Origin: Lachnospiraceae bacterium
GTDB taxonomy: Bacteria; Bacillota; Clostridia; Lachnospirales; Lachnospiraceae
Direction: 5' to 3'
DNA length: 64,000 nucleotides
Assembly: GCA_017938145.1 (NCBI GenBank)
Contig: JAGBCB010000021.1
Location: 48,794 to 112,793, forward strand
A program made the position numbers and the translations under genes. Below the pieces are notes generated by a model. It was not told the DNA's origin and searched no databases. It saw only the letters and a program-made list of their open reading frames with translations. The first letter of the stretch is position 1; every line of letters begins with the position of its first letter. This document shows, in pieces, positions 30,272 to 33,497 of this stretch.

Positions 30272-30301
30272 TTGACAAAAGAGTAATGTAAGTGCTATCA
30301 T
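30272..30301 (+). promoter_or_regulatory. Sigma-A promoter of pflB
   Basis: TTGACA, 18-base spacer, TATCAT. The ~75-base leader then contains two small hairpins (GTCG...CGAC and CGTG-GAAAA-CACG) before AAGGAGT and the ATG. Confidence 0.6.
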
Positions 30302-30385: not shown

Positions 30386-32437
30386 ATGAGAGAAGAGTGG
30401 AACAATTTTAATAGTGGTATCTGGGTAAAAGAAATTAACGTTCGTGATTTCATCCAGAAGAACTACACTCCATACGAAGGTGATGATTCCTTCTTATGTG
30501 ACGCAACCCAGAACACAAAGGATTTATGGGCGCAGGTAATGGAATTAACTAAGGAAGAGCTTGCAAAGGGTGGTGTCCTTGATATGGATACCCACATCAT
30601 CTCTACTATCACTTCCCATGGCCCTGGCTATTTAAATAAAGATAAGGAAACTATCGTAGGTTTCCAGACAGATAAGCCATTTAAGCGTGCACTTCAGCCA
30701 AACGGCGGTATCCGTATGGCAGTTAAGGCTTGTGAAGATAACGGCTACACTGTAGACCCGACTATCGTAGAGTTCTACACAAAGCACAGAAAGACACACA
30801 ACGCAGGTGTATTCGATGCTTACACACCTGAAATGCGTGCCTGCCGTTCCAGCCACATCATTACCGGTCTTCCGGATGCTTACGGCCGCGGACGTATCAT
30901 CGGCGACTACCGTCGTGTAGCTCTTTACGGTGTTGACCGTCTTATTGCTGACAAGCAGCAGCAGAAGGCTACCACACGTAAGACAATGTACTCTGACGTT
31001 ACCAGAAACCGCGAAGAATTATCCGAGCAGATTCGTGCATTAGAGGAATTAAAGGAACTTGGTAACATTTACGGTTTTGATATTTCCAGACCGGCTCAGA
31101 ACGTACAGGAAGCTATTCAGTGGACTTACTTCGGTTACCTTGCAGCAGTTAAGGAGCAGAACGGTGCAGCTATGTCCCTCGGACGTACCTCTACCTTCCT
31201 TGATATCTACGCTCAGCGTGACCTTGCAAACGGTACTTTCACAGAAGAGCAGATTCAGGAATTCGTAGACCACTTTGTAATGAAGCTTCGTCTTGTTAAG
31301 TTCGCAAGAACACCGGAATACAATGCACTGTTCTCCGGCGACCCAACTTGGGTAACCGAATCCATCGGTGGTATGGGTATCGACGGTCGTACACTTGTTA
31401 CAAAGATGTCCTACCGTTTCCTTCATACATTAGTTAACTTAGGTACCGCTCCGGAACCAAACCTTACCGTATTATGGTCCACCAGACTTCCTGAAAACTT
31501 CAAGAAGTTCTGTGCTAAGACTTCCGTTATGTCCTCTTCCATCCAGTATGAGAACGATGACTTAATGCGTGTAACTCACGGTGACGACTACGCTATCGCT
31601 TGCTGCGTATCCTCCATGAGAGTAGGTAAGGAAATGCAGTTCTTCGGTGCTCGTGCTAACCTTGCTAAGTGTCTCCTCTACGCTATCAACGGTGGTGTGG
31701 ATGAAGTTTCCAAGAAGCAGGTTGGTCCTAAGTTCCGTCCAATCACTTCCGAATACCTTGACTTCGATGAAGTTTGGGATCGTTACAAGGATATGATGTG
31801 GTGGTTAGCAAAGGTATATATAAATACCTTAAATATCATCCACTACATGCATGATAAGTACTGCTACGAAAGATTACAGATGGCATTACATGATAAGAAC
31901 GTAACACGTTGGTTCGCAACAGGTATTGCAGGTCTTTCCGTAGTTGCTGACTCCTTATCCGCTATCAAGTACGCAAAGGTTAAGACAATCCGTGATGAGA
32001 ACGGTATTGTTGTTGACTACGAAGTAGAAGGCGATTTCCCTAAGTACGGTAACGATGATGACCGTGTAGATGACCTTGCTTATGACTTAGTAAGCACCTT
32101 CATGGGTTATGTTGGCGGTGTTCACACTTACCGTGGCGGTATCCCAACCACTTCCATCCTTACTATCACTTCCAACGTAGTTTACGGTAAGAATACCGGT
32201 TCTACTCCGGATGGCAGAAAGGCCGGCGAACCATTTGCTCCGGGTGCTAACCCAATGCACAACCGTGATAAGAATGGTGCTATCGCTTCCTTAAGCTCCG
32301 TATCCAAGCTTCCGTTCAAGTATGCACAGGATGGTATCTCCAATACCTTCTCCATCATTCCGGATGCTCTTGGTAAGGGCGATGACGTATTCTTTGCAGG
32401 CGATGCTCTCAATGTAGATGGCATGAAGCTTGACTAA
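30386..32437 (+). CDS. pflB: Pyruvate formate-lyase catalytic protein lacking the glycyl-radical domain
   Basis: The 683-residue protein matches formate C-acetyltransferase throughout, including the adjacent active-site cysteines in [21 protein letters not shown] (read in parts; Cys406-Cys407). It splits pyruvate plus CoA into acetyl-CoA and formate in anaerobic metabolism. It stops at ...[10 protein letters not shown], before the C-terminal glycyl-radical segment present in normal ~750-residue enzymes. That segment is encoded 90 bases downstream in the same reading frame as a separate 80-residue protein, and three in-frame stops lie between. The catalytic protein therefore cannot make its own radical. 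Confidence 0.93.
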
Positions 32438-32458
32438 TTCATCAAAATATAGTATAAT
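32430..32458 (+). promoter_or_regulatory. Sigma-A promoter of the glycyl-radical gene, overlapping the pflB stop
   Basis: TTGACT (32430-32435, its last base being the first of the pflB TAA), a 17-base spacer, and TATAAT (32453-32458). Confidence 0.75.
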
Positions 32459-32463
32459 TAAGT

Positions 32464-32497
32464 TCCACTTCAAACAAGATATTGTGTTTGGAGTGGA
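32464..32497 (+). ncRNA. 5' stem-loop in the leader of the glycyl-radical gene
   Basis: TCCACTTCAAACA and TGTTTGGAGTGGA form a 13-bp stem (one G-U pair) with an 8-base loop, beginning at the start point predicted from the internal promoter. No T-run follows, so it is not a terminator; an mRNA 5' stabiliser or processing element is likely. Confidence 0.65.
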
Positions 32498-32527
32498 GAT
32501 AGACTAAAAATAAAGGAGGAAACTATC

Positions 32528-32770
32528 ATGTCCGTTAGCGAAAATCAGATCGATAACTTAGTAAACATGCTCGATGCATATGTTGAAAAGGGTGGTCATC
32601 ACTTAAACGTAAATGTATTTACAAAGGAAACTTTATTAGATGCTCAGGCTCATCCTGAGAAGTATCCTCAGCTCACTATCCGTGTATCCGGATACGCTGT
32701 TAACTTCAACAAGTTAACCAAGGAGCAGCAGGACGAAGTTATCTCCAGAACCTTCCATGAAGGAATGTAA
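32528..32770 (+). CDS. grcA: Free-standing glycyl-radical domain of pyruvate formate-lyase (GrcA-like)
   Basis: This 80-residue protein is the missing C-terminus of pyruvate formate-lyase: [30 protein letters not shown] with the radical glycine at residue 55, and [14 protein letters not shown]. In E. coli a similar spare domain (GrcA/YfiD) rescues oxygen-cut enzyme; here the main enzyme lacks the domain, so this protein should be an obligatory subunit that docks to PflB and is activated by PflA. It has AGGAGG before its ATG, its own promoter, and its end overlaps pflA by 14 bases. Confidence 0.93.
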
Positions 32771-33497
32771 TTCCGGAGCAATACACTCTGTCGAAACATT
32801 TGGAACTGTAGATGGACCGGGCATCCGATATGTGGTATTTTTCCAGGGATGCCCGTTTCGTTGTTTATTCTGCCATAATCCGGACACCTGGACTCCTCAG
32901 GGCGGCACGCAAATGACGGTGGATGAGCTTCTGGCAGGCTATCAGAAAAACATCAGCTTTTATAAAAAAGGCGGCATTACTGCCAGCGGCGGTGAACCGT
33001 TGATGCAGCTTGACTTTTTAACCACACTGTTCAAAAAAGCCAAGGAAGCAGGCATTCACACCTGTCTTGACACTTCTGCTGCCACCTACAGCGAAGCCCG
33101 CCGGGAAGACTTTGAGACACTTCTCCAATATACCGACCTGGTTCTTCTTGATTTTAAGCACAGCGACCGCGAAGAGCATAAAAAGCTCACCGGCATGTAC
33201 AACGATGCCCCTCTCGCCTTTGCAAAGCTTTTAGACGAAAAGAAAATTCCGATGGTTGTCCGTCATGTACTGGTACCGGAGATTACCGACACACCGGAAC
33301 AGCTTAGGAATCTGGGCAGGCTGATGAAACAGTTTAAAAATGTAGTCGGTTTAGAGGTGTTACCGTTCCATCAAATGGGTACGGTAAAGTATAAAAACCT
33401 GGGTATTCCGTATCCGTTAGAGGGTGTAAACGCACTCACCAAAGAAGATGGAAAGCGGGCAAAAGAAATGATTTTGAAGGCCTATAAAGAGGCGTAA
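32757..33497 (+). CDS. pflA: Pyruvate formate-lyase activating enzyme
   Basis: The 246-residue radical-SAM enzyme has the cluster motif CPFRCLFC near residue 30, the family opening ([18 protein letters not shown]) and the ASGGEPLMQ segment. It abstracts a hydrogen from the glycine of pyruvate formate-lyase, here the Gly55 of the separate small protein. The ATG at 32757 lies within the last codons of that gene, giving translational coupling of radical subunit and activase. A strong hairpin terminator follows. Confidence 0.95.

Follow-up and report, generated by a model that had tools for sequence, protein, structure and literature searches.

Pyruvate formate-lyase (PFL), which is central to the fermentation of anaerobes, is a textbook example of an oxygen-sensitive radical enzyme. 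The window analysed here, a stretch of 64,000 nucleotides from a Lachnospiraceae bacterium, carries a pflB gene that ends before the glycyl radical domain, followed by a gene encoding an 80-residue protein that contains the radical loop. The question raised by this locus is whether the two genes encode one enzyme in two subunits, or whether the small protein is a spare part, the remnant of a broken gene, one end of a protein translated across the gap, or a partner of other glycyl radical enzymes. We consider the locus to be a working two-subunit PFL with a probability of about 0.88, in which docking, installation of the radical in trans and catalysis would proceed as predicted from the sequences.

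Organization of the pfl locus

The features of the locus are as follows.

30272..30301, + strand, promoter-like site upstream of pflB, TTGACA-18-TATCAT (consensus scan, 11/12)
30386..32437, + strand, pflB, large catalytic subunit of 683 aa without glycyl radical domain (TIGR01255, alignment with E. coli PFL)
31601..31606, + strand, codons of the catalytic cysteine pair C406-C407 (E. coli C418-C419), in the sequence AIACCVSS
32378..32434, + strand, lineage-specific tail of 19 residues after ALGK (tail consensus over 112 split tails)
32430..32458, + strand, promoter-like site that would serve the small gene and pflA, TTGACT-17-TATAAT, overlapping the pflB stop (11/12)
90 nt, + strand, gap between pflB and the small ORF (sequence)
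32464..32497, + strand, hairpin of 13 pairs, presumably at the start of the transcript of the small gene (folding)
32514..32519, + strand, ribosome-binding site AGGAGG, 8 nt ahead of the small ORF (sequence)
32528..32770, + strand, small radical subunit of 80 aa, GrcA3 family (NF038360, alignment with E. coli PFL)
32690..32692, + strand, codon of the radical glycine Gly55 in RVSGYAVNF, which matches the RVSGYAV motif of PFL and YfiD in the alignment
32757..33497, + strand, pflA, radical-SAM activating enzyme, overlapping the small ORF by 14 nt (TIGR02493, 288.1 bits, cut-off 231.75)

In a profile search the large ORF passed the equivalog cut-off of the PFL model TIGR01255 (1093.1 bits, cut-off 994.2). 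It covers positions 2-665 of 744 and ends at 665-666; the radical domain, tested for in the same chain, is missing from it and is encoded by the next ORF. The small ORF matches this model over positions 663-744 and belongs to the NCBIfam family NF038360, GrcA3 (170.5 bits, cut-off 158). In the alignment with the E. coli PFL (PDB 1h16), residues 10-682 correspond to residues 4-670 of the large protein and residues 684-759 to residues 10-80 of the small one. The two ORFs thus tile one enzyme, with almost no residues missing or doubled between them. The initial annotation, which had the large frame stop before the glycyl-radical segment, is correct on this point, and the two ORFs, the gap with its three in-frame stops (that of pflB included), the promoter-like site, the hairpin and the ribosome site were all found at the positions it had given.

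Distribution of the split genes in the Lachnospiraceae

The GrcA3 model was searched in 299 genomes of the family, representing 298 genera, and a match was considered as stand-alone when its open frame was shorter than 250 aa. At least 135 stand-alone matches were detected in at least 114 genomes, and all 134 loci outside the source genome were retrieved for inspection. In 114 of the 135 loci (at least 114 of the 299 genomes), the small ORF is on the same strand as, and downstream of, a PFL cut at the same place, and the linked large ORF stops before the radical domain in 114 cases out of 114. The split that had been claimed from the window is not peculiar to it. Recurrence of the pair at this frequency is more than chance. 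The motif SGYAV is conserved in 135 of 135 small ORFs, and the cysteine pair in 112 of 112 linked large ORFs long enough to include it (L187 was read by eye and the 111 others by pattern, the fragments L203 and L228 being left out of the count). The gap measures 0-489 nt, or 803-1041 nt where pflA intervenes. The order pflB-pflA-small is observed in three loci (L131, L153 and L154), indicating that the small gene can move without being lost. In the 21 remaining loci no PFL was present in the retrieved stretch. One of them, L184, lies at a contig edge and is regarded as a near-copy of L149 rather than an orphan; the 20 others are unlinked extra copies, and each of their genomes also has a linked copy.

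Since both ORFs of the window are in one frame, pflB might be suspected to be a recent pseudogene or the product of an assembly error, with the small ORF as its remnant. This explanation is already refuted by the conservation and is practically excluded: the same cut is found in 114 genomes with the gap lengths given above and no preferred frame, the motifs are invariant, the large ORF has gained a tail and the small ORF has a ribosome site of its own. Concerning the frame, the small ORF is in the frame of the large one in 40 of the 114 loci and shifted in 33 and 41 loci, and in the sister species (G001) an insertion of 20 nt breaks the common frame. The common frame of the window is thus without meaning, and the idea that it had been kept as a trace of the ancestral split had to be abandoned. 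The 74 loci out of frame, G001 and the three in-frame stops of the window also argue against the synthesis of one protein by stop-codon read-through or frameshifting over the gap, a hardly conceivable explanation for which the common frame in the window is the favourable point.

Distribution outside the Lachnospiraceae

Among 398 genomes spread over the phylum, only two passed the GrcA3 cut-off, both belonging to the family. Nearly all weaker matches are in long frames; those of G343 and G512 are in frames of 198 and 252 aa. Named genomes were scanned with a profile of the small subunit, and the best 80 matches, which do not give a rate, comprise 71 split genes beside a PFL, no full-length PFL and nine genes without PFL in the stretch, two of them (L312 and L366) near a contig edge. 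Isolates with a split PFL include Ruminococcus bicirculans 80/3, R. albus KH2T6, Collinsella aerofaciens MCC370, Collinsella sp. An2, Olsenella uli An733, O. phocaeensis and Lancefieldella rimae ATCC 49626. The metagenome-assembled genomes (MAGs) that carry it include some with the labels Lachnospiraceae, Oscillospiraceae, Erysipelotrichaceae, Spirochaetota, Melainabacteria and Acholeplasmatales; a small number of MAG labels (a Muribaculaceae, a proteobacterium) are possibly erroneous. A locus from a different family of this order, L290 of genome G034, is also split. The arrangement is thus real in this lineage, to which the initial annotation had referred it, but named isolates and MAGs elsewhere show that it is special neither to the strain nor to the Lachnospiraceae.

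Two further observations concern the small gene. Five Gastranaerophilales loci (L354, L356, L362, L369 and L370) have it without any PFL within about 3.5 kb upstream. In Olsenella phocaeensis, two small-subunit frames with equal scores are separated by 5 kb (G712:C1:99242-99472 and 104659-104889), and one of them adjoins the only large subunit of this genome.

Full-length PFLs and other glycyl radical enzymes in the carriers

The source genome (G000, 78% complete) contains a single PFL-like core. Its Gly_radical matches are the pfl locus and one further frame, which reads from its translation as the anaerobic (class III) ribonucleotide reductase NrdD. The same split pair is present in the congener G002 (97% complete), where no Gly_radical match was obtained outside the split locus at 1e-5, and also in the sister species G001; in another congener, G003 (86% complete), the small protein gave no match. 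A second full-length pflB, whose presence would have spoken against an obligatory pair, was looked for and found in neither G000 nor G002. In nine of nine genomes (G000, G002 and the seven named isolates) the split gene is the only match over the TIGR01255 cut-off. In the family, a hand tally with up to three candidates scored per genome gave one TIGR01255 match at 1e-50, taken as the split gene, for 99 of the 114 split genomes. Two matches were obtained in the 15 others: at least six of the 114 (G104, G138, G151, G284, G303 and G314) have a full-length PFL in addition to the split one, and nine more have a second match.

These values bear on the possibility that the small protein acts merely as a spare part for a full-length PFL encoded elsewhere, in the manner of E. 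coli GrcA/YfiD. The NCBIfam name, autonomous glycyl radical cofactor GrcA3, and the genomes with both forms are in its favour. It is nevertheless very unlikely given the 99 single matches in the family and the nine genomes without any full-length PFL over the cut-off (G000 being 78% complete). Moreover, the small protein falls under the cut-offs of GrcA (TIGR04365, 99 bits of 170) and GrcA2 (100.7 of 145), its alignment with YfiD leaves out the first 20 residues whereas the end of PFL is matched over residues 10-80, and the linked large ORF always ends before the domain. In the carriers in which no full-length PFL was found, the radical domain appears to be an obligatory separate subunit, as initially proposed. 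It is also highly improbable that the large protein is a PFL paralogue acting on another substrate, or that several glycyl radical enzymes share the small protein. Other glycyl radical enzymes do occur in carriers, for example in O. phocaeensis and O. uli, but the large ORF scores over the PFL equivalog cut-off and G002 has no Gly_radical match outside the locus at 1e-5. We retain the two-subunit PFL, which is real, widespread and probably obligatory.

Phylogeny of the split PFLs

PFL trees were built without L179, L203, L226 and L228, which are too short, and the later trees were thinned by hand; the tree of named loci included 34 of the 71 named split loci. With FastTree (156 rows, midpoint root), 110 split genes and seven full-length genes form one clade with a support of 99. 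The support of the split clade is also 99 in a quick IQ-TREE analysis (84 rows) and reaches 100/100 in a careful tree (61 rows). The split genes placed in the trees therefore form one clade, and a single fission is most likely. Since the surrounding lineages and 16 full-length PFLs from outside the family are single-chain, we read the fission as the derived state, in agreement with the initial proposal that a single-chain ancestor had been split. Coriobacteriia, Spirochaetota and Melainabacteria are found inside the split clade among Bacillota, which we read as horizontal transfer.

The full-length gene L230 (G115:C26) sits among the split genes with all three procedures. Its linker from ALGK to DGY has 40 residues. 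Among 62 full-length PFLs, this linker counts exactly 16 residues in 60 and 15 in one. The extra stretch of L230 resembles a cysteine-bearing tail followed by the start of a small subunit. Its position inside the split clade and this scar indicate a re-fusion, the only sure one. Six other full-length PFLs (L229 and L231-L235) were within the split clade in six trees (five of the six in three of these trees). A tree holding the split genes and L230 together, with the six outside, was rejected on the careful 61-row tree (p-AU 0.0034, five of the six used), whereas on a quick 79-row tree the same constraint gave a p-AU of 0.6, the held tree being 11 units better. Holding the split rows alone against all seven full-length genes gave a p-AU of 0.0405. 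Because the constraint tests disagree and five of the six have an ordinary linker of 16 residues (15 in L231), only L230 is called a sure re-fusion; the six may be re-fusions or an unsplit side branch.

The tail of the large subunit

Beyond ALGK, the large subunits of split PFLs from the family show the consensus (E/D)D(Q/K)VFAGD(I/L)x(V/L/I)xL. Among 112 tails, F is conserved at position 5 in 96, G at position 7 in 97 and D at position 8 in 99; L183 and L185, both tailed, were left out of a pattern-based tail table. By comparison, 61 of 62 full-length PFLs have just 15-16 residues from ALG(K) to DGY and no such tail, and the tail pattern tried had no match in any linker of the 62. Two or more cysteines occur in 34 of the 112 tails, and the gaps are shorter there (median 63 vs 287 nt). 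Cys-rich ends such as CxxACxIPNLxEGLDxE or DCACCEPN are observed in L112, L130, L137, L098, L096 and others; a metal site or a redox switch is possible.

Nine named split loci have no tail (L321, L327, L329, L333, L337, L342, L359, L360 and L365), their large subunits ending at the LGK/LGR motif or at most three residues from it. The seven that are long enough for the tree form one group (support 100, starred), which joins the tailed split genes at 91, not starred, from the outgroup side. This position suggests that the fission probably came first and the tail later. A separate fission of the tail-less group is possible, so a single fission is not certain. These nine loci weaken the tail as an obligatory docking element; it is kept as a candidate docking aid, with one split clade that lacks it.

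Promoters, hairpin and unlinked copies

In the scanned stretch, 11 promoter-like sites were detected where 7.4 were expected. The folding energy of the gap is -20.7 kcal/mol (z -3.53). In G001 (L291:3200-3370), the 20 extra nucleotides after the pflB stop supply a second TTGACT, which restores the 17-nt spacing of the -35 and -10 boxes despite the insertion (spacer counted by eye). Three positions of the hairpin arm are changed in G001, all of them still paired (by eye). The boxes, spacer and pairing being kept, there is fair evidence that the promoter and the hairpin are used in the source genome and its sister species. The promoter and stem-loop of the initial annotation are thus present in the window and kept in G001, but they are not general across split loci, and in G002 neither the promoter-like site nor the hairpin was found.

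Of 111 gaps, 18 contain sites matching at least 10 of 12 positions, where shuffled sequences give an expectation of 6.4; 4 of these gaps belong to the 37 short ones and 14 to the 74 long ones. With this weak enrichment outside the sister pair a promoter was not retained as a general feature. Terminator-like sites (9 of 111 gaps) and a folded gap RNA (z below -2 for 43 gaps out of 107, with a median of -1.55 and values close to zero in short gaps) were likewise discarded as general devices.

The 20 unlinked small copies are those of L123, L135, L152, L158, L162, L165, L189, L192-L194, L197, L201, L202, L204, L205, L208, L215, L220, L224 and L227. A gene for a Crp-type regulator precedes four of them on the same strand (L135, L197, L202 and L220), the copy of L224 precedes thioredoxin and rubrerythrin genes, and others adjoin spore or housekeeping genes. 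These surroundings are compatible with a separate control of the unlinked copies, in some perhaps by oxygen stress.

Proposed functioning of the two-subunit enzyme

The large protein is a PFL core with its cysteine pair, and the 80-residue protein, encoded by a separate gene, is the C-terminal end with the radical loop. The small protein would dock in or on the large one, PflA would place the radical on Gly55 of the docked protein, and the radical would pass from Gly55 to the cysteine pair, where pyruvate and CoA would be converted into acetyl-CoA and formate. The fission would most likely have taken place a single time, in an ancestor common to many gut anaerobes, and the split gene would then have spread.

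The PFL chain is cut by oxygen at its radical glycine. Remaking the small protein would then suffice, and its exchange after oxygen damage is a speculative extension of this scheme. A broader scenario, which we put forward tentatively and would sooner doubt than accept, is that the central fermentation of a large share of the gut anaerobes runs on a PFL with a disposable radical subunit. The oxygen-cut Gly55 protein would be swapped and the large one kept, new copies would be made in excess from their own promoter or from unlinked genes, the cut gene would have been favoured enough to cross several phyla, and the later tail would have improved docking.

If the split PFL is natural and obligatory, a radical domain can be a constitutive subunit and not merely an emergency spare. 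The radical-bearing part, destroyed by oxygen, might be exchangeable alone, and the repair of glycyl radical enzymes by exchange of this part becomes testable. For annotation, a small gene named as a spare cofactor appears to be necessary for PFL activity in carriers without full-length PFL.

Comparison with known systems

The single-chain PflB of E. coli (PDB 1h16) has the same cysteine pair and radical loop motif as the split protein, with pflA adjacent, and its full length is covered by the two ORFs together. The chain is here broken between residues 682 and 684 of the E. coli enzyme, and the large part often has a new tail. GrcA/YfiD of E. coli (PDB 6owr, TIGR04365) is likewise a separate small protein with the radical loop, which acts with PflA and a PFL lacking this loop, as reported in excerpts of PMC8683613, where the N-terminal half of YfiD is described as disordered. 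YfiD repairs an oxygen-cut full-length PFL; in contrast, the protein studied here has 80 aa and a full-length PFL is usually not found. The name of the GrcA3 family, to which the window protein belongs, implies a spare cofactor acting autonomously, whereas the genomes suggest an obligatory subunit.

The closest experimental parallel is the engineered E. coli PFL 1-695 (tPFL), in which the radical domain is also supplied in trans. According to the excerpts of PMC8683613, tPFL with YfiD has wild-type activity once activated, so that the two-piece chemistry works. The same excerpts report no detectable binding of YfiD to PFL 1-695 and 32-fold less radical than with oxygen-cleaved PFL and YfiD; binding needs PFL residues 696-733 and is helped by the first 60 residues of YfiD. 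The artificial cut is 13 residues further on than the natural one, and residues 684-695 consequently remain with the small protein in the split PFL. Given the poor binding and activation of tPFL (same excerpts), docking must be better in the natural split PFL, and we suggest that the 684-695 stretch and, in most lineages, the tail solve it.

A description of the split PFL and the name GrcA3 were both searched for and not found in the open-access library searched (bioRxiv preprints and most subscription journals lying outside it), and excerpts of a 2025 review (PMC12288474) mention autonomous cofactors for facultative anaerobes only. Concerning structures, the closest solved chains to the large ORF are 38la_A and 38lb_A (Formate acetyltransferase), with 1136 and 1152 bits against 981 for the E. 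coli enzyme. An alignment-based PDB search, whose query alignment contained one junk row (a single codon of L107), agrees in ranking with the other PDB searches. Over its C-terminal part, 38lb shares 84% identity with the split large subunit from Olsenella uli and 75% with the best full-length PFL of the set, and it groups with Atopobiaceae. The C-terminal part of 38la is 82-83% identical to split large subunits and 78% to the best full-length PFL; its chain end, natural or designed, is at SLGKED, the fission point, and it groups with split genes of the Melainabacteria type. No chain of entries 38la and 38lb was found when the small protein was searched against the PDB. As both chains are nearest to split large subunits, the structure of such subunits has probably been solved already. 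The GrcA3 family name in NCBIfam and PDB chains close to the large subunit are thus already known, and the probably obligatory two-part PFL is a variant form of a known enzyme.
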